Origin: an uncultured Gammaproteobacteria bacterium
GTDB lineage: Bacteria; Pseudomonadota; Gammaproteobacteria; Pseudomonadales; Pseudohongiellaceae
Direction of reading: 5' to 3'
NCBI GenBank assembly: GCA_913058135.1
Contig: CAJXPR010000001.1
Location: 24,113 to 88,112 of the forward strand
DNA length: 64,000 nucleotides
Positions 1,390 through 15,962 of the stretch are shown here, piece after piece. Both the position numbers and the translations under genes were made by a program. The notes below the pieces were generated by a model that was not told the origin of the DNA, searched no databases, and worked only from the letters and a program-made list of their open reading frames with translations. Within the stretch, counting starts at the first letter, position 1; the number at the start of each line of letters is the position of its first letter.

Positions 1390-2764
1390 ATCTGCGTTGA
1401 CGATGCAGGCACCGCTGCGCCGAACTGAAATATTGCGACGTGCCTGGCCGGTGATGCTGGCCAATGCTTCCGTTCCCCTCCTCGGTCTGTCTGATACTGC
1501 TGTCATTGGCAACACCGGCTCACTGGCAGCACTGGGTGCGATTGCCTTTGGCGCCATCATCTTCAGTTTTGTTTATTGGGGTTTTGGTTTTCTGCGCATG
1601 GGCACCACCGGTTTTACTGCCCAGGCAGTGGGCGCCGGTGATGAGGCAGAGGTACGCACTGTCCTGTGGCGTGCAATGCTGCTGGCAGCGGGACTGGGCC
1701 TGCTGCTGATCGCCCTGCAGCAGCCCATCAGCGCCGTGTCACTGTCACTGATGAACGGCAGCGACAGCGTTGATGCGCTGACCCGTGATTATATTGCCAT
1801 GCGCATCTGGGGCGCACCGGCCGCACTGGCGCTGTTTGCATTGATGGGGTGCCTGATTGGTCTGGGCCACAGCAAAACCCTGTTGCGGGTGCAGGTATTC
1901 CTGAACGGCCTGAATATTACCCTGGACATCTGGTTTGCCGGGTTTCTGGGCATGGGTGTCGAGGGCATCGCGCTGGGCACGGCGGTGGCGGAATGGAGCA
2001 GCGTCGGCCTCGCCCTGTTTCTGGTATTGCGCATTCTGCGTCAGCGCCACAATGACGGGGAAGCTTTTGTCCCTCTGCCACGCCTGCGTGACTGGACGCG
2101 TTTGCGCCACACGCTGAGCGTGAACAGCCGCATCATGATCCGCACGCTGTTATTGGTGTTCAGTTTCGCCTGGTTTGTCAGACAAAGCGCCCAGTTTGGT
2201 GATGATGTGCTGGCCGCCAATCATATCCTGCTACAGCTGATCTCCTTTTCCGCGTTTTTTCTGGATGCCTATGCCTACGTCACAGAAGCACTGGTGGGCG
2301 AAGCTGCCGGCGCGAAAAACGGGCGACGTTTTGATGAAGCCGTGCGCAAAAGCAGTGAGCTGGCAATAGTCAGTGCGGTCGCGCTGGCGGTGATCATTCT
2401 GGTGGGCGGCGAGTTTGCTGCGCAACTGCTGAGTACGCACGAACAGGTCTGGTATCAGGTGTCACTGGTACTGCCCTGGGCGGCACTGTATGTGTTGTTG
2501 GCGGTAGTCGCGTTTCAGCTTGATGGCGTGTTTATTGGCACGACACGTACTCGCGAGATGCGTAACGCCGCCGTGGTCGGTACCGTCATTTTTCTGCCAT
2601 TGAGTGTGTTGATGACTGACCTGGCAGCCAATCACGGCCTGTGGCTGTCGTTCGTTATTTATGTGTGTCTGCGCGCCATCTGTTTACTGTTCTACCTGCC
2701 GGCGCTGCGGCGGTCGGTGCGCGGCTCTCAGAACTCAGTCGGGGCTCCTGATCAGCTGGGGTAG
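1382..2764 (+). CDS. MATE-family efflux transporter, DinF-like
   Basis: Inner-membrane multidrug/toxin exporter of the MATE family, 460 residues with about twelve hydrophobic segments. The first repeat has 'LGLSDTAVIG' and the second block 'FGFLRMGTTGFTAQAVG', both typical of the DinF branch. The ORF-track start (1289) lies deep inside the kinase gene; the ATG at 1382 ('MSKSALTM') gives an eight-base overlap with the kinase stop and the expected N-terminus, implying translational coupling. Substrate is unknown. The 3' end overlaps the convergent ACR3-like gene by 30 bases. Confidence 0.85.
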   Translation: MSKSALTMQAPLRRTEILRRAWPVMLANASVPLLGLSDTAVIGNTGSLAALGAIAFGAIIFSFVYWGFGFLRMGTTGFTAQAVGAGDEAEVRTVLWRAMLLAAGLGLLLIALQQPISAVSLSLMNGSDSVDALTRDYIAMRIWGAPAALALFALMGCLIGLGHSKTLLRVQVFLNGLNITLDIWFAGFLGMGVEGIALGTAVAEWSSVGLALFLVLRILRQRHNDGEAFVPLPRLRDWTRLRHTLSVNSRIMIRTLLLVFSFAWFVRQSAQFGDDVLAANHILLQLISFSAFFLDAYAYVTEALVGEAAGAKNGRRFDEAVRKSSELAIVSAVALAVIILVGGEFAAQLLSTHEQVWYQVSLVLPWAALYVLLAVVAFQLDGVFIGTTRTREMRNAAVVGTVIFLPLSVLMTDLAANHGLWLSFVIYVCLRAICLLFYLPALRRSVRGSQNSVGAPDQLG

Positions 2765-3709
2765 CCAGCGCAGATAGATAATCATGCCGAACAGTTCGAC
2801 CAGAGACTGCAACACGATAACCACGACCGCCAGATGCCAGGCCTCTGGCAAGGACAGTGCCAGTGGCAGCATGACAAAGGAGTTGCGCGTGCCAAAGCTG
2901 AAGGTTAGTGTAAGGCCGACCGGCGCACCGAAACCGAAAAACCTGCTCAGCCCCGTTCCGATGACCGCAGCAGAAATCAGGTAAAAAATGAAAACCAGCA
3001 GTACCGGCCAGAAGAAGTTGCCAATATCTGACACCAGTCTGACCTGGGAGCCAGCGATCAGGAATACGACCACAGTAAGTAGCGGCACCGGCAACCAACC
3101 CAGCACACCAATCAACGCGCTCGCTTTCGCATGCCCATCCGATAACCATTGTGTCAACGCCGCCAGTATCAGCGGCAGCACTATCAGTCCAAAGAAAGCT
3201 GGCAGCAGGTAACTGCCGACTGCCAGTTGAACCGCCAGGTCACCCATAAAAAGCCAGAGGTAGACGGGCAACAGGATTAGCTGTGCGATCAGCAGGATTG
3301 GCGCGGCGGCAACGGCCCTGGCGTTGTCACCGCCGCCGAGGTGAGTAAAACTTATAAACCAGTCGGTACAGGGCACCAGCAGTACCAGTAGCACGCCGAG
3401 GCGGATGGCAGGGTCGTCCGGCAATAGCAGCAGCAATGCGCCGATCACCAGGGGAATCAGAACAAAGTTTCCGGCCAGCAAGGCGCTCAGAAAGCTCCGA
3501 TCGCCTAACGCAGAAGACACGTGTGTCAACGGCACCTGCGTAAAGGTTGTGTAAAGCAGAACTCCCAATACCGGCCACAGCAGTAACTCCCAGCTTTGGG
3601 TCTTCTCTGGCGACATCCAGCCAACGGCCATGCCGACGACAATGGCAATCAGATAGAACCAGACCTGATGTCGTTCAAGAGATTTAGCCGTGTCCATAAA
3701 CCACATCAT
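2735..3709 (-). CDS. ACR3/bile-acid:sodium symporter family permease (putative arsenic resistance protein)
   Basis: Integral membrane protein of 324 residues with about ten transmembrane segments, in the ACR3/BASS superfamily. The segment 'LVPCTDWFISFTHLGGGD' (near residues 110-127) resembles the conserved cysteine-containing helix of proteins annotated as arsenite exporters, and 'LTFSFGTRNSFVMLPLAL' resembles the second crossover helix. No arsR, arsC or arsH lies next to it, so arsenite as substrate is an inference from family alone. The gene is read leftward and tail-overlaps the MATE gene. Its ATG region overlaps the last recognisable codons of a decayed czcD copy, so it may once have been downstream of that gene. 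Confidence 0.65.
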   Translation of the reverse strand: MMWFMDTAKSLERHQVWFYLIAIVVGMAVGWMSPEKTQSWELLLWPVLGVLLYTTFTQVPLTHVSSALGDRSFLSALLAGNFVLIPLVIGALLLLLPDDPAIRLGVLLVLLVPCTDWFISFTHLGGGDNARAVAAAPILLIAQLILLPVYLWLFMGDLAVQLAVGSYLLPAFFGLIVLPLILAALTQWLSDGHAKASALIGVLGWLPVPLLTVVVFLIAGSQVRLVSDIGNFFWPVLLVFIFYLISAAVIGTGLSRFFGFGAPVGLTLTFSFGTRNSFVMLPLALSLPEAWHLAVVVIVLQSLVELFGMIIYLRWLPQLIRSPD

Positions 3710-3710
3710 G

Positions 3711-4036
3711 CCGATGGCTGTAGTCCGGGTGTGCGAATCTCAACGCCGAATGCAGTATGTTCAATCCTGCCTCCAGAATCATCATTTTCCGATGGTTAGT
3801 TTGCTCAAAATGATCCCGGGCCTTGGCATCGACGAGTGCACGGGCGTAAAGCGAAGCTTAGTGCTCGCCCATTTGCCAATAGTGTACATGATGAACGTCA
3901 ACGACACATTCAATCCGGATTAACGCCGCTGCCGCCCTGTCCAAAAAGTTGTGCAAGGCATCGGCGATAAGTGCCAGGCTAGCCGCACGATGCCGACCTC
4001 GACTTGGGCAAGGGTCACAATAGCATTAGCCCAGAT
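3711..4036 (-). pseudogene. Decayed czcD (CDF transporter) copy with internal deletion
   Basis: Reading the minus strand, about 3925 down to 3711 gives 'RIECVVDVHHVHYWQMGEH', a stop, then 'ASLYARALVDAKARDHFEQT' and 'HPDYSH'. This matches the C-terminal cytosolic domain of the intact CzcD at 6701-7609 (RIEGVVDVHHVHCWQMGEHEASL...). The adjoining 3926-4036 gives 'GIWANAIVTLAQV' and, after a one-base frame change, 'SLALIADALHNFLD', matching the CzcD N-terminus. The transmembrane middle, about two thirds of the gene, is missing. A premature stop, a frameshift and the deletion make this a clear pseudogene. It sits directly downstream of the TonB receptor and upstream of the ACR3-like gene. Confidence 0.85.
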
Positions 4037-4038
4037 GC

Positions 4039-5994
4039 CTAGAACAACACTTTAATCCCTCCGTTTACAATAAAACCATCAAGCGGGGCGTAAATATCCC
4101 TGAACTGAGGATTCGATAGGCTGCCGGTGTAGATAGTATCGAACCGTGTTTGACGGGTATCACCAAAGTTTTCGAAATTAAGGAATAGCTTTACGTTTTC
4201 CGCCAAAGTCTTCTCTGTCATCACACCTGTGACCCAATAGCTTTTACCTCTAGCACCGTCGCTCAGACGCTGCGGTCCATAGTAATAAGCTTCAAGTCCT
4301 ATCCTGAAATCATCTTCGCGCTCATAGATTAGAACATTGTTGAGCCGGTGTTCTGACACCAGCGGCGCTCTGGATACCGTACCCGCATAGTGCTCGCGCA
4401 CATTCGCATGCGTATAACCCAGAAACAGCTTGAAGTCGCCGTATGTGGCTGTAGCAGTGATCTCTACGCCCCGTGTATCGACATATCCACCGGGTTGCGT
4501 AAATTCAAGGTTATCTCCCTGCTCCTGCAACTCCAGTGGATCGTCCACGCGTGTGTAAAACAGCAGCGAATTTAGCGTAATAAGGTTACCGTTACTCTGG
4601 GGTATCCGATAGGTCACATCCATGTTGACACCTTTGGACTGCTCCTCATTCATTGAGCTGCGGTCCAACGGTAATACATTGCGGAACTGCACACTCTCTG
4701 CTTCTTCAATGAATAATGAAGGCAAACGATAGCCCAGACCACCACCAGCGCGAACAGTGATGTCAGTCGTCGGCTCGTACAAAAACGCGACACGCGGCAG
4801 AGTAATGGTACCGTGATCATCGTTGTGGTCTACACGAACGCCTGCTTCAATACTGACGGTGTCGGTCAGCGGTCGGGAGTTTTGAATGAATGCACCCAGC
4901 GTATACTGAGAGAAATCCTGATTAAAGCCCGGTACGGCGTCCTGTTGTTCAAATTCTTCAGTGATCAGGCTCAAGCCCGTTATCCATTCGGCAGCACCCT
5001 TCGGCAGCGCGTAGTGCAGCTCGCTGAAGCTTGATTTTTGTACCCCCGCAAATCCAAAGTCGGCCATTTCAAGCTCTCGATCAAAGTGTCCCAGACTGTT
5101 TCGGAAATTTAAAGTCCCCTCTCCCAGCGGCCGACTATATTCGAGCTGACTTGACAACCGCTTGGTACGATTGTCTTCGTAATAGGGCTCGGCGACCGGC
5201 CTGTCTTTGATGTAATCCATATTGCCGCCGAGGCGATCTTCCACAACGGCGGTAATGCCGATGCTCAGCTCGCTTGAATCATCCAGATAGAAAAATGCGC
5301 GCGGATTCAGCGTCCATCGCTCAAATTGAGGAATAGCTGACAAGCCGACATCCGACGGATCATAGGCAGTGTTTTCGTTCCATGAAGCGAAAAGTGTGGT
5401 ACCTACCTTGTCGCTGCGCGAAGCGTGAAAAGCACTGGCATCGAGTCCTCCCGCCGAAGTTCGATTTAGTAACATGCTGGTCTCAGGCTCGTAATCTGGC
5501 ACTTTGGTGATCAGATTCACTAAACCCGCTATTGCGCCGCCTCCATACAAGGTAGAAGACGAGCCCTTGATGACCTCAACTGCCTGCAGATCCAGAGGCG
5601 CGATCTGGAGCAACCCAAGTCCACCGGCAAAACCTGAATACAATGGCAAGCCATCGCGCAACATTTGTGTGTAGCGGCCGTCCAGCCCCTGGATACGGAT
5701 ACTCGAGTTAAATGTGGTCGCCGAAGTCTGTTGAACCTGAATGCCGGTGCTTTCATTCAACAACATCCTGATGTCACCAGGTTTCATGTTCACCTTTTCA
5801 CCAAGCTCTTCACCCGAGATTAATTCCACTCGTGTTGGCAAATCTTCCAATGAACGACGGCTTCTGGTAGAGGTCACCAGGATTTCTTCGACCGCCTCTT
5901 CCTGGGTATCATCATCAGATTGGCCATAAGCATCAGGTTGAACGATACAGAATACTAATACTCCACACACTAACGGGGACCAAAAAGACTGCAT
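4039..5994 (-). CDS. TonB-dependent outer-membrane receptor, MerR-promoter controlled
   Basis: Outer-membrane beta-barrel receptor for energised uptake of a metal, metal chelate or other ligand. The 651-residue product has a signal peptide (residues 1-25, 'LVCGVLVFCIVQPDAYGQ'), a TonB-box-like 'EEILVTSTR' (36-44), a plug domain (about 45-165 with 'IRIQGLDGRYTQMLRDGLPL') and a barrel ending in phenylalanine. The ORF track proposes 706 residues from 6159, but that codon lies in the -10 element of the promoter described next. The ATG at 5994 follows 'AAGGAG' at good spacing and gives a clean signal peptide. Setting beside czc genes and a MerR-type promoter suggests a metal-related ligand; the ligand itself cannot be read from sequence. 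Confidence 0.9.
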   Translation of the reverse strand: MQSFWSPLVCGVLVFCIVQPDAYGQSDDDTQEEAVEEILVTSTRSRRSLEDLPTRVELISGEELGEKVNMKPGDIRMLLNESTGIQVQQTSATTFNSSIRIQGLDGRYTQMLRDGLPLYSGFAGGLGLLQIAPLDLQAVEVIKGSSSTLYGGGAIAGLVNLITKVPDYEPETSMLLNRTSAGGLDASAFHASRSDKVGTTLFASWNENTAYDPSDVGLSAIPQFERWTLNPRAFFYLDDSSELSIGITAVVEDRLGGNMDYIKDRPVAEPYYEDNRTKRLSSQLEYSRPLGEGTLNFRNSLGHFDRELEMADFGFAGVQKSSFSELHYALPKGAAEWITGLSLITEEFEQQDAVPGFNQDFSQYTLGAFIQNSRPLTDTVSIEAGVRVDHNDDHGTITLPRVAFLYEPTTDITVRAGGGLGYRLPSLFIEEAESVQFRNVLPLDRSSMNEEQSKGVNMDVTYRIPQSNGNLITLNSLLFYTRVDDPLELQEQGDNLEFTQPGGYVDTRGVEITATATYGDFKLFLGYTHANVREHYAGTVSRAPLVSEHRLNNVLIYEREDDFRIGLEAYYYGPQRLSDGARGKSYWVTGVMTEKTLAENVKLFLNFENFGDTRQTRFDTIYTGSLSNPQFRDIYAPLDGFIVNGGIKVLF

Positions 5995-6157
5995 GATAAG
6001 AGCTCCTTTATAAACTGCAATTTTGGCTGACATCTGAATCAATGACGGAAGTGTCAGCTTTGTAGAACGCCGCTTTGGTGGTAACCGCAACAGAGTGATA
6101 CTCGCGCTTTGCCTATGGATATTAACTATATTCACTCTTGAACTGACAAGAGCCGAC

Positions 6158-6188
6158 ATTTAAAACCCTGTAGCTACTCCAGGGTCAA
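6158..6188 (-). promoter_or_regulatory. MerR-family promoter/operator driving the TonB receptor
   Basis: On the minus strand there is a -35 'TTGACC' (6188-6183), a 19-base spacer and a -10 'TTAAAT' (6163-6158). The over-long spacer contains a dyad, ACCCTG-(9)-CAGGGT (6165-6185), of the type bound by CadR/PbrR/ZntR proteins. The elongated spacer with a central dyad is the hallmark of promoters that MerR-family activators untwist. Its orientation points to the TonB receptor, with a leader of about 150 bases. The divergent merR-like gene starts 35 bases to the right, so the same site probably also autoregulates it. Confidence 0.75.
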
Positions 6189-6222
6189 TAGGGTATTATC
6201 TGGAAAAATTATAGAGGTGAGC

Positions 6223-6603
6223 ATGCGGATAGGACAGCTAAGCCAAGCAACTGGCATAGGGATTGAAACCATTCGCTACTATGAGAAAGTTGGGTTGCTG
6301 CCCGACCCTGCACGATTGCCGAATGGTTATCGCGATTATGGCCCTGGGCACCTGGACAGATTGGCATTCATTCGCCAATGCCGGTCTCTGGATATATCAA
6401 TCGCTGATATAGCGCGTTTGCTCGATTTTCGACATGGTAGTCCAACAGATTGCGATGCGATCAATCAGCTGGTCGATGAACATCTGGCTCAGATTCGTGT
6501 TCAAATTGTCAGCATGCGTGCGCTAGAGAGCCAGCTCATTGAGTTGCGTAAACGCTGTTCAAAAGGAAGAGAACGCCTGATTGCGGTATTCTCAATGAAT
6601 TGA
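6223..6603 (+). CDS. MerR-family metal-responsive regulator, CadR/PbrR-like
   Basis: DNA-binding activator of 126 residues, similar in layout to Cd(II)/Pb(II)-responsive CadR/PbrR. The N-terminal winged helix-turn-helix ('RIGQLSQATGIGIETIRYYE') is followed by a dimerisation helix. With the ATG at 6223 (preceded by 'AGAGGTGAGC') the cysteines fall at 53, 77 and 112. Cys77 and Cys112 match two of the three CadR metal ligands, but the third, expected near residue 119, is absent because the tail is short and reads 'SKGRERLIAVFSMN'. The ORF-track GTG at 6217 adds two residues. It is divergent from the TonB receptor and convergent with czcD; the operator between them is its likely target. Confidence 0.85.
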   Translation: MRIGQLSQATGIGIETIRYYEKVGLLPDPARLPNGYRDYGPGHLDRLAFIRQCRSLDISIADIARLLDFRHGSPTDCDAINQLVDEHLAQIRVQIVSMRALESQLIELRKRCSKGRERLIAVFSMN

Positions 6604-6700
6604 CAACCTCAGCCCGTGGCAAAATGGCAATCAAACGGTTCCCTTCACATTGACTAGCAACTGATCAACCTCACAGCCAATCACAGTCTATGGTGTCATT

Positions 6701-7609
6701 CTATCCGTGCCCATATACCTTGGTATCCTGGTGACAGTGATCAGGGTGTTCAAACTCCAGCGTGGAATGTCGTATGTTGAATTCCGCCTCCAGCGCCATT
6801 TTTAGGCGATGTTTGGTCTGCTCAAACTGATCCCAGGCGCCGGCATCAATCACTACATGAGCGTCCAGCGAGGCTTCATGCTCACCCATTTGCCAGCAAT
6901 GCACATGATGAACATCAACTACACCTTCGATCCTGGTGAGTACCAGAATGACAGCGTCCGTATCAATATTCAAAGGGCTCCCCAGCATCAATGTTCTGAT
7001 ACTCCCACCGATTTCTGTCAGGCCAAGATAAAGAATATAGCTTGCGATGACGATGGTGATGACAGGGTCAACCCAGCGCAGGTCGTAGAGCAGGATGAAA
7101 ACTCCGCCAATGATCACGGCGACTGATGCGAGCGCATCGGACAGATTATGCAGAAACAGCGCACGGATGTTGACGCTGTCTTTCTGCATTGAATAGGTGA
7201 GTAAGGCCGTCAGCGCATCCACGGCCAGAGCAATACCGCCCAGCCAGATGACCCACCAACCTTTGACTTCCGGGGGATCCAGTATCCGCATGCCACCTTC
7301 GTATATCAGATACATCCCGATGATAATCAAGGTGGTGTAGTTTATCAGGGCTGCAACTACCTCAATTCGCCCATAACCAAAGGTCATCCTGGCGTCCGCC
7401 GGACGACGCGAAATTTTCCGGGCGGCAAACGCAATGACCAGAGCTGCCATGTCCGAAAAGTTATGCAAGGCATCGGCAATAAGCGCCAGGCTGCCGGCAA
7501 AAATACCGCCCCCGATTTGCGCAAACGTCAGAATAGCATTGGCCCAGATGGCGATGGCAACGCGCTTATCCTTCGATTCCGGGGACATATGGTTGTGTTC
7601 GTGACTCAT
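6701..7609 (-). CDS. czcD: Cation diffusion facilitator CzcD
   Basis: Inner-membrane proton-coupled exporter of zinc, cobalt or cadmium; 302 residues. It has a His-containing N-terminus ('MSHEHNHM'), six transmembrane segments and a cytosolic C-terminal domain ending in His/Cys-rich 'HPDHCHQD'. The transport site is the canonical HxxxD pair: 'LHNFSD' in TM2 and 'LHNLSD' in TM5. The ORF track uses a TTG at 7672; the ATG at 7609 is preceded by 'GAGGGTGATCC' and starts at the expected residue. It is the last gene of the leftward czc operon, 63 bases after czcA, with a hairpin in the gap. A decayed paralogue lies at 3711-4036. Confidence 0.92.
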   Translation of the reverse strand: MSHEHNHMSPESKDKRVAIAIWANAILTFAQIGGGIFAGSLALIADALHNFSDMAALVIAFAARKISRRPADARMTFGYGRIEVVAALINYTTLIIIGMYLIYEGGMRILDPPEVKGWWVIWLGGIALAVDALTALLTYSMQKDSVNIRALFLHNLSDALASVAVIIGGVFILLYDLRWVDPVITIVIASYILYLGLTEIGGSIRTLMLGSPLNIDTDAVILVLTRIEGVVDVHHVHCWQMGEHEASLDAHVVIDAGAWDQFEQTKHRLKMALEAEFNIRHSTLEFEHPDHCHQDTKVYGHG

Positions 7610-7635
7610 TGGATCACCCTCGTCCTGGTCGCTGG

Positions 7636-7672: not shown

Positions 7673-11805
<4,133 letters not shown>

Positions 11806-11820
11806 GGTCATTGTCCTTTT

Positions 11821-13116
11821 TCAGCGATCAGCCAGCGGCTGGGCTGTCAGTTGTTCGATAAAGGCCTGGTTCAGCAGTGCTGTTGCTGCGGTGTCGACCA
11901 GAGCACGCTGTGCGGCGAGTAATTCACGTTGTGCGGCCATCCATTCCACATAGCTGTAGCGCCCGCTTTCATAAGCTTGGCGGGTTTGAGTTAGTGCCTC
12001 GCTCAGATCAGGTAGCATCTCGTTGCGGATCCGCTCTACGGCGGCTATGCTTTGCTGCCTTAGTTGATAGGCATCAAACAGATATGAATGCAGGTTCAGC
12101 AGCGTGGTCTCGCGTCTAAACCTGACTTCGTCGCGGGCCGCTCGTGCCGCGCGAACTTCGCCACGGTTACGTTGGACTGGGAACAGTGGCACGGAAAATC
12201 CAGCTGTAAATGCGAAGTCATCCGTATCTTCCCTGCGTCGGACACCCACTTGCCAGCCGATGTCGCTTTCAGACTGGCTACGAGCCAATTGAATCTCTGC
12301 TTCGCGCACTCGCTGTTCACTGGCATAGACCTGAATGGCAGGGCTGTCGCTGACGCGCTCAAACAGGGACTCAAAACTGTCAGAGGACCCGAATTGAAAC
12401 AAATCACCCTGCAACTGACCGAACTCTACCGAGGTGTCCCCCCACAACAGAGCCAATGCCATCTTTCGGCTAACCAGCTCCGATTGCAGGCGTGACTGTT
12501 CAATCTGGCTCTGCGTCAGCGCAGCCTTGGCCCGCAATACCTCAGCCTGGGATGTAGCGCCTTGATTGGCGCGCCGGGTAACGATATCAAGTGTCGACTG
12601 AGTCAGTGAAACTGCATCAGCAGCAAGCTGAAGCTTCTCCTGCAATGCCAGGGTAGCAACAAAGCGTTGAGTGACTTGCCCCAGCAGATCAAGGGTTTCC
12701 ACCCGACGCTCCGCCTCTACAAGCTCTAGCCGCGAATCGACTGCACTGACTCGTGCCTGCCGCTGCCCGCCAAGTTCGAGGGTTGACGACAGTGTCAAGG
12801 TAAGCTCCGCGCCCACCAGGCCGCGCGCATCGGCGGTACCAAGAAAGTTCTCGACCTCAGCACCGACTTCCAGTGCCGGGTTCAGGTTGGCCGTGATTCG
12901 GCGTCCCTGAAGCCCATCAAGACGCAGGTCAAAGACCTGTAACCGCGGGTTTTGCGCCATGGCGCGGGACATGGCATCGCTCAGGGTGAGCATGCTATCT
13001 GCCGCCTGGACGGCGGTGACATTGAGCGGATATACAATAGCCGCCCACAACAATAGGTAAAAAATGCGATACGGCAATGCGCATCTCCCCGCATACACGG
13101 ACAATATGGAAGGCAT
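11821..13116 (-). CDS. czcC: Outer-membrane efflux channel CzcC
   Basis: TolC-like outer-membrane factor of the Czc exporter, 431 residues. It has an N-terminal hydrophobic export signal, the opening 'LTLSDAMSRAMAQNPRLQVF' typical of the family, two OEP repeats with long coiled-coil helices (about 150-230 and 355-425), and 'SVPLFPVQRNRGEV' near the equatorial domain. The ATG is preceded by 'AGGAG' at seven bases. It is the second gene of the leftward operon, 63 bases after the small His-rich protein gene, and is followed by czcB after 15 bases. Confidence 0.9.
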   Translation of the reverse strand: MPSILSVYAGRCALPYRIFYLLLWAAIVYPLNVTAVQAADSMLTLSDAMSRAMAQNPRLQVFDLRLDGLQGRRITANLNPALEVGAEVENFLGTADARGLVGAELTLTLSSTLELGGQRQARVSAVDSRLELVEAERRVETLDLLGQVTQRFVATLALQEKLQLAADAVSLTQSTLDIVTRRANQGATSQAEVLRAKAALTQSQIEQSRLQSELVSRKMALALLWGDTSVEFGQLQGDLFQFGSSDSFESLFERVSDSPAIQVYASEQRVREAEIQLARSQSESDIGWQVGVRRREDTDDFAFTAGFSVPLFPVQRNRGEVRAARAARDEVRFRRETTLLNLHSYLFDAYQLRQQSIAAVERIRNEMLPDLSEALTQTRQAYESGRYSYVEWMAAQRELLAAQRALVDTAATALLNQAFIEQLTAQPLADR

Positions 13117-13179: not shown

Positions 13180-13524
13180 TCAGGCGATCGGAGGGCGCAG
13201 CAGTGGGGGGTGGATGCCTTTCAGCAAGCTGGCTCGATAAACCAGTACAACTGAAGTTTCGGCAGTAGCGGGAAGAGATGTCTGTGGTATCACCAAACCC
13301 ATATGAAAACAGTTATGGTTGTGATGACAATCAGCGCCGGAGTGATGAGACTCATTTTGAAAGGGATTGCTTTTATGCACTTCTCTTTCGATATCAGCCG
13401 ACGCCAATGAATGCTCATGGTGAGGCGCTGACGCGTGATGAAGCTGTTCTTCATAGGCAATAGAGGCCACTGACTGCAAAGCAATCATTAGCGTTATTGC
13501 GATAATGAAACAGCGTTTAATCAT
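13180..13524 (-). CDS. Small exported His-rich CzcI-like protein
   Basis: Protein of 114 residues with a signal peptide ('FIIAITLMIALQSVASIAY') and a His/Cys-rich middle ('HHASAPHHEHSLA', 'HHSGADCHHNHNCFH'), ending in a Pro-rich 'LLRPPIA'. Small periplasmic proteins of this architecture head many czc operons and are grouped with CzcI, thought to bind metal or modulate efflux; function here is by position and composition. It is the first gene of the czcI-like/C/B/A/D operon. A decayed copy is visible at 14493-14592. Confidence 0.65.
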   Translation of the reverse strand: MIKRCFIIAITLMIALQSVASIAYEEQLHHASAPHHEHSLASADIEREVHKSNPFQNESHHSGADCHHNHNCFHMGLVIPQTSLPATAETSVVLVYRASLLKGIHPPLLRPPIA

Positions 13525-15493: not shown

Positions 15494-15604
15494 TTAGATA
15501 GACACAGCTAGTCGGAGATAAAACTCATCCACCGGAGCAAATATGTTCCTGTACTTAGGATTCAGACAGGTTTCTTGTATGGATAGTTCCGAACTTGGTT
15601 CGAC
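15494..15604 (-). pseudogene. C-terminal remnant of a TonB-dependent receptor
   Basis: On the minus strand one frame reads 'RRTKFGTIHTRNLS' and, after a one-base frame change, 'LNPKYRNIFAPVDEFYLRLAVSI' then a stop. The intact receptor at 4039-5994 ends 'RQTRFDTIYTGSLSNPQFRDIYAPLDGF...'. Order, spacing and residues correspond, so this is the last ~37 codons of a decayed paralogue. No further upstream receptor sequence was recognised. Confidence 0.8.
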
Positions 15605-15640
15605 GAGGGCCTCACACGCCCTCGAGGCTGAGGAATGGGG

Positions 15641-15685
15641 ACATACTTCCCCCGAACACCTTTCCAGCCATCAAGGACGTGAACC
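15641..15685. repeat. 45-bp direct repeat, left copy
   Basis: Shares 38 of 45 positions (hand count) with 17382-17426, in the same orientation, including an identical 'acttcccccgaacacc' core. The two copies bracket the CaCA exchanger gene. The surrounding 15605-15962 stretch holds no recognised gene. Confidence 0.6.
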
Positions 15686-15962
15686 AACTGCATGATCGTG
15701 ATGTATATTTCTGCGCCGCGAGTATCAGCAATGTGAGCTGGCTGGACAACGAGACTCGCTATCAAGGCGGTCATTAGAACCGAACCAGATCGATCAGGAC
15801 GGCGTCGACAATAGAGGCGACCTGGTCGCCTCTATTGTCCAGTCTATTTTCTTGTTAGGATTCAAGTTCGGATAGGAGTTGATGCCGGATGAGACCGAAC
15901 AACACCTCTTATCGCGCCGAACGCGACCGTACACAGCAGTTGCAGATGGAGCGGAGGCAAGG

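Follow-up and report, generated by a model that had tools for sequence, protein, structure and literature searches.

In the window (the whole 64,000-nucleotide stretch of Pseudohongiellaceae DNA analysed here), a promoter of the CadR/PbrR type points at the gene of a TonB-dependent outer-membrane receptor. The best reading, and in our opinion a reasonably probable one given the sequence comparisons, is that the receptor comes from an exporter/receptor cassette, is regulated by metal and forms the target of a CadR/PbrR-type regulon. CadR-type sensors normally turn on pumps, and TonB receptors are usually metal-repressed (by Fur or Zur).

On the minus strand, positions 6188 to 6158 read TTGACC-CTGGAGTAGCTACAGGGTT-TTAAAT. 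The -35 (6183-6188) and -10 (6158-6163) hexamers are thus separated by a 19-bp spacer, and the operator dyad, ACCCTGGAG-TAG-CTACAGGGT (6165-6185, 9-bp arms with one mismatch), is centred in it. Opposite the promoter lies the divergent gene of a CadR/PbrR-like regulator, merR (6223-6603, plus strand). All the marks of a CadR/PbrR-type promoter (a TTGAC -35, a spacer of 19-20 bp, a -10 and a mid-spacer dyad) are found here, and the divergent regulator, the TTGAC-type -35 and the 19-bp dyad spacer are those of CadR-cadA in Pseudomonas putida and PbrR-pbrA in Cupriavidus metallidurans. The native -10 of PpbrA is likewise TTAAAT (PMC3431237). The sequence-only reading had described a -35/-10 pair with a 19-base spacer and a central dyad oriented to the receptor, and this observation holds because: (i), the 31-base promoter query, with three or fewer mismatches allowed, matches once in the window and never in 100 shuffles; (ii), in 20 mononucleotide-shuffled versions of the window, a generic CadR-type consensus has no match within four mismatches; (iii), the hexamers with a 19-bp spacer are read only toward the receptor, the opposite reading having 5 mismatches; (iv), a sigma-70 scan of the intergenic minus strand (5994-6222) detects no promoter with a 16-18 bp spacer; and (v), all 31 bases are identical in the window genome (G000) and in four relatives, G020, G022 (UBA2675), G026 (HyVt-330) and G027 (Pseudohongiella sp. 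O18), which share the merR/operator/receptor arrangement. By its sequence, the 6158-6188 site is a working-type CadR/PbrR promoter, at which regulator binding and induction would be expected.

At two or fewer mismatches, G000, G022, G026 and G027 have no operator other than the receptor site. G020 has one extra operator, next to an HMA-CDF exporter gene and a second CadR-like gene of its own, and matches with three mismatches are no more frequent than the control rate. Behind the receptor, G020, G022, G026 and G027 carry a convergent HMA-CDF gene, ahead of which no CadR-type operator was recognised. Directly past this gene lies a mer-like operon with MerR, MerT/P-like, MerA-like and MerC-like genes (locus L023, 9595-12670).

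The receptor gene (4039-5994, minus strand) encodes a 651-residue protein with a plug (Pfam Plug), a 22-strand barrel (Pfam TonB_dep_Rec) and, as judged by eye, a signal peptide and a TonB-box-like EEILVTSTR. Translation is assigned to the ATG at 5994, the next start codon to be preceded by a Shine-Dalgarno sequence (AAAGGAG, 6003-6009); a 706-residue reading frame opening at 6159 was ruled out, as it overlaps the -10 and has no Shine-Dalgarno sequence. With the transcription start placed from the -10, the predicted leader spans about 157 nt (5995-6151). Foldseek matches the fold to Cir, BtuB and OprC (probability 1.00, the plug of the predicted model being of low confidence); the fold gives no indication of the cargo, as siderophore receptors score no differently from these three, and every match to the NCBIfam metal and siderophore receptor subfamilies falls far below cut-off. 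A search of the class (368 other genomes) found no close homologue. The receptor is, by its Ka/Ks values (0.026-0.067), under strong purifying selection.

The start of merR likewise borders on the dyad, and the operator might mainly serve merR autoregulation, with the receptor transcribed from another promoter in its leader, for example a Fur- or Zur-controlled one. In Mangrovibacterium, a Fur-family gene (L037, 5198-5617) lies directly 5' of a receptor homologue, a hint that other kinds of metal regulation serve the receptor family elsewhere. We nevertheless find this explanation quite improbable: the correctly spaced hexamers face the receptor only, the intergenic region is free of sigma-70-like sites on the strand of the receptor, and in three relatives a 65-bp deletion of the leader just 3' of the -10 has spared the operator without loss of the receptor.

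How unusual such a target is can be seen from 392 genomes of the order, which were searched for the pattern TTGACYYTRNAGTNRCTAYRGRNT, the first gene downstream of each site being classified. The search yielded 57 sites in 53 genomes; the reversed pattern gave no site in the same 392. Outside Pseudohongiella, exporters stand behind 50 of the 54 sites (counts that are phylogenetically non-independent), namely 33 CDF or HMA-CDF genes, 16 P-type ATPases and one CzcC operon, in agreement with the earlier statement that these operators normally serve export. The other four sites face MerC (two), an FTR1-cytochrome gene (PbrT-like, one) and a contig end (one), so that inner-membrane importers account for three of the 54 and a receptor for none. 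That leaves three of the 57, which are the sites facing the receptor in the window genome and in two of its Pseudohongiella relatives. A TonB receptor under a CadR/PbrR-type promoter was not found described in the main texts of open-licence papers, and TonB is absent from the main text of a comparative-genomics paper on CadR/PbrR regulons.

The sequence-only reading had also held that activation of an outer-membrane importer by metal would be unusual. This stands for the receptor, which is exceptional among the surveyed targets, but control of import by MerR-type regulators is in itself not new: such sensors can switch on uptake of the very metal that they sense, as in mer operons and with PbrT (PMC9909328, PMC3431237), and NimR controls nickel uptake (PMC9909328). 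As the targets in these precedents (MerT/MerC, PbrT in pbr, the nickel uptake under NimR) are all inner-membrane, the surprise lies in the outer-membrane, TonB-energised nature of the target described here; in CadR-cadA and PbrR-pbrA the corresponding target is an ATPase or a CDF exporter.

The best structural-database match of the regulator itself is CadR (PDB 6jgf, E=5e-32), and TIGR02047 is by far its best family, with 140.3 bits against an equivalog cut-off of 151.45. Since even the full-length proteins of relatives (149.6 and 147.7 bits) stay just under this cut-off, the right label is "CadR/PbrR-like". Compared with each of its close relatives, the window gene carries a frameshift, which the sequence-only reading had not noted: a 1-bp deletion at 6568-6569 has turned GGAAAGAG, present in four relatives, into GGAAGAG, so that the frame is lost after CSKG and the 126-residue product ends at a stop at 6603. 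The codons of the loop's second half (TPDCGILNEL...) and of the tail persist out of frame at 6573-6653 (TPDCGILNELTTSARGKMAIKRFPSH, stop), where G020, G022, G026 and G027 have them in frame, and the break also appears as a two-piece match in similarity searches. In CadR structures, cadmium is bound by Cys112, Cys119 and Cys77' (PMC9909328). Of the metal-site cysteines expected at 77, 112 and about 119-121 in the C-terminal loop, the window protein keeps Cys77 and Cys112 (and also Cys53) but has lost Cys121 with the loop, unlike CadR and PbrR; all three are present in G020, G022, G026, G027 and the more distant congener G030, so that the intact proteins resemble CadR/PbrR in their conserved Cys77, Cys112 and C-terminal cysteine.

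Over the roughly 9 kb compared, no other frame-breaking coding indel consistently sets the window apart from all four relatives, which makes generally poor sequence quality unlikely, although the deletion might still be a single error. Programmed -1 frameshifting that would restore the loop was considered and rejected: TCA AAA GGA is no standard slippery heptamer and the extra A is in frame in four relatives, making a simple deletion more likely. Metal sensing has thus probably been lost in the window strain, unless the deletion is an assembly error, and with the metal-binding loop gone metal activation there is doubtful; the truncated protein, whose helix-turn-helix and dimer helix are intact, would probably bind DNA without sensing and hold the receptor at a basal or repressed level. 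One could go further and suppose that the regulator is altered rather than broken: blind to metal, it would repress or activate constitutively, and would have been selected because it fixes receptor expression. The preserved DNA-binding and dimer helices, the retained Cys77 and Cys112 and the continuing purifying selection on the receptor agree with this proposal, but it rests on a single indel in an A-run of one genome, for which drift or assembly error would do equally well, and no second such allele occurs among five relatives; we consider it very improbable.

Immediately 3' of the receptor lies a decayed remnant (3687-4066, minus strand) of a full-length CDF exporter, likewise absent from the sequence-only reading, seen as tblastn pieces matching the CDF product of 6704-7612 and interrupted by stops in all frames. 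The next intact gene downstream on the receptor strand encodes an SBF-family permease of the sodium/bile-acid symporter superfamily (2735-3709, minus strand; Pfam SBF). On the other side, convergent with merR, the CDF exporter gene at 6701-7612 (minus strand; TIGR01297 above cut-off) ends a czcCBA operon whose czcC, czcB and czcA genes (7673-13116, minus strand) encode an RND efflux system with a CzcA/CusA-family pump. Upstream of czcC, the gene at 13180-13524 (minus strand) encodes a short secreted protein rich in histidine, methionine and cysteine and without Pfam family; a similar one follows the G030 receptor (L131, 12916-13230, plus strand), and both are possible periplasmic metal binders. 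At the far end of the czc cluster, fragments of a receptor C-terminus lie beside short CDF genes (15497-15686, minus strand, in the window; 18069-18203 in L132), suggesting that receptor/CDF pairs were repeatedly duplicated and decayed in this island. A frame-broken HMA-CDF gene is present on contig C119 of the window genome (8300-8996, L130), where no intact one was found.

The history of the unit is best approached through G030. Its divergent merR is 68% identical to that of the window and its promoter, TTGACC-19-TCTAAT, is of the same operator class, as are those of the CadR-operator/HMA-CDF operons found elsewhere in the order (L059-L079, L110, L111). In G030, the promoter reads an HMA-CDF exporter, then a receptor 75% identical to that of the window, then the small Met/His/Cys-rich secreted protein; in the window clade, no exporter separates promoter and receptor. 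A phage-integrase-family gene and several large genes resembling those of recombinases (L131, 1894-7488 and 13342-15553) flank the G030 cassette, which is therefore probably mobile-element cargo. A simple inversion of the HMA-CDF/receptor pair from the G030 order does not explain the convergent HMA-CDF of the relatives: it differs from that of G030, with only about 47% identity, so that the exporter was exchanged and not merely flipped. We infer that G030 keeps the older gene order; no outgroup carrying these three genes was found. The sequence-only suggestion that the receptor replaced an earlier efflux gene at this promoter is thus half right: promoter and receptor seem once to have had an exporter between them, since lost, in a unit to which the receptor already belonged.

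One may object that rearrangement of the island simply brought the receptor next to an exporter promoter, leaving a metal regulation without benefit and a switch in decay. The heavily rearranged surroundings, with the CDF remnant behind the receptor and the receptor fragments at 15497-15686 and in L132, the swapped HMA-CDF genes and the merR frameshift of the window genome are what such a relic would predict. It predicts less well that four relatives have preserved both the operator and an intact merR, that receptor Ka/Ks lies well below 0.1, and that in G030 the receptor already follows the exporter, apparently in one transcription unit. On balance we judge the relic scenario unlikely, and the receptor has probably not strayed into this position at random.

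Receptor homologues outside the genus point to a recurrent, though not universal, link with exporters. On some Bacteroidota plasmids, a homologue is followed by a Cd-family P-type ATPase (pOR1), an HMA-CDF or a cation transporter, and one lies near CzcA; three other plasmid homologues, and most chromosomal ones of Gammaproteobacteria and Bacteroidota, adjoin no recognised exporter. The plasmid cassettes (pOR1, Flavobacterium N2155), ordered DUF6660-like gene, receptor, then HMA-CDF or Cd-type P-type ATPase, have a receptor about 50% identical to that of the window, placed next to a metal exporter, but differ from the window locus in that no CadR-type operator or MerR gene was recognised and the receptor precedes the exporter. 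A small Cys-rich DUF6660-like gene usually lies just 5' of the Bacteroidota homologues (L026, L029-L034, L038-L041). The earlier proposal that the receptor handles a metal complex agrees with its closeness, in several loci, to CDF, Cd-type P-type ATPase and RND genes.

A mechanism consistent with these data may be suggested. CadR and PbrR are known to activate transcription by untwisting DNA at an over-long spacer. Similarly, a dimer of the divergent MerR-family protein would sit on the dyad within the over-long 19-bp spacer, the promoter being shut without metal, and a Cd-, Pb- or Zn-like metal bound at Cys77', Cys112 and Cys121 would untwist the DNA and turn on the receptor. By analogy with the known sensors, metal-dependent activation is the most economical reading for the relatives with intact regulators, in which a single-site regulon would yield a metal-inducible receptor. 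The receptor would then be a recruited part of a metal-resistance cassette that became the first gene in the window lineage through loss of the exporter between it and the promoter. It would probably carry across the outer membrane either a metal complex or some compound that the cell requires under metal stress, the exporters serving the cytoplasmic side.

It is tempting to speculate further, and we regard this as possible though rather doubtful, that the whole recognisable CadR/PbrR-type regulon has been rewired to one TonB-dependent receptor, such that an excess of metal in the cytoplasm raises energised transport at the outer membrane and the receptor acts in detoxification, not in nutrition. 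Such detoxification could consist, for example, in the recapture of metal complexes, or in taking up a metal that protects or that replaces another. The window genome, from which the loop has been lost naturally, provides a ready-made test of the loop's role. If our reading is correct, a conserved CadR-type switch with the receptor as its only recognisable target would bring outer-membrane uptake into the heavy-metal stress response, and would offer a genetic handle on a receptor family that is common to Pseudomonadota and Bacteroidota and stands beside exporters on some plasmids.
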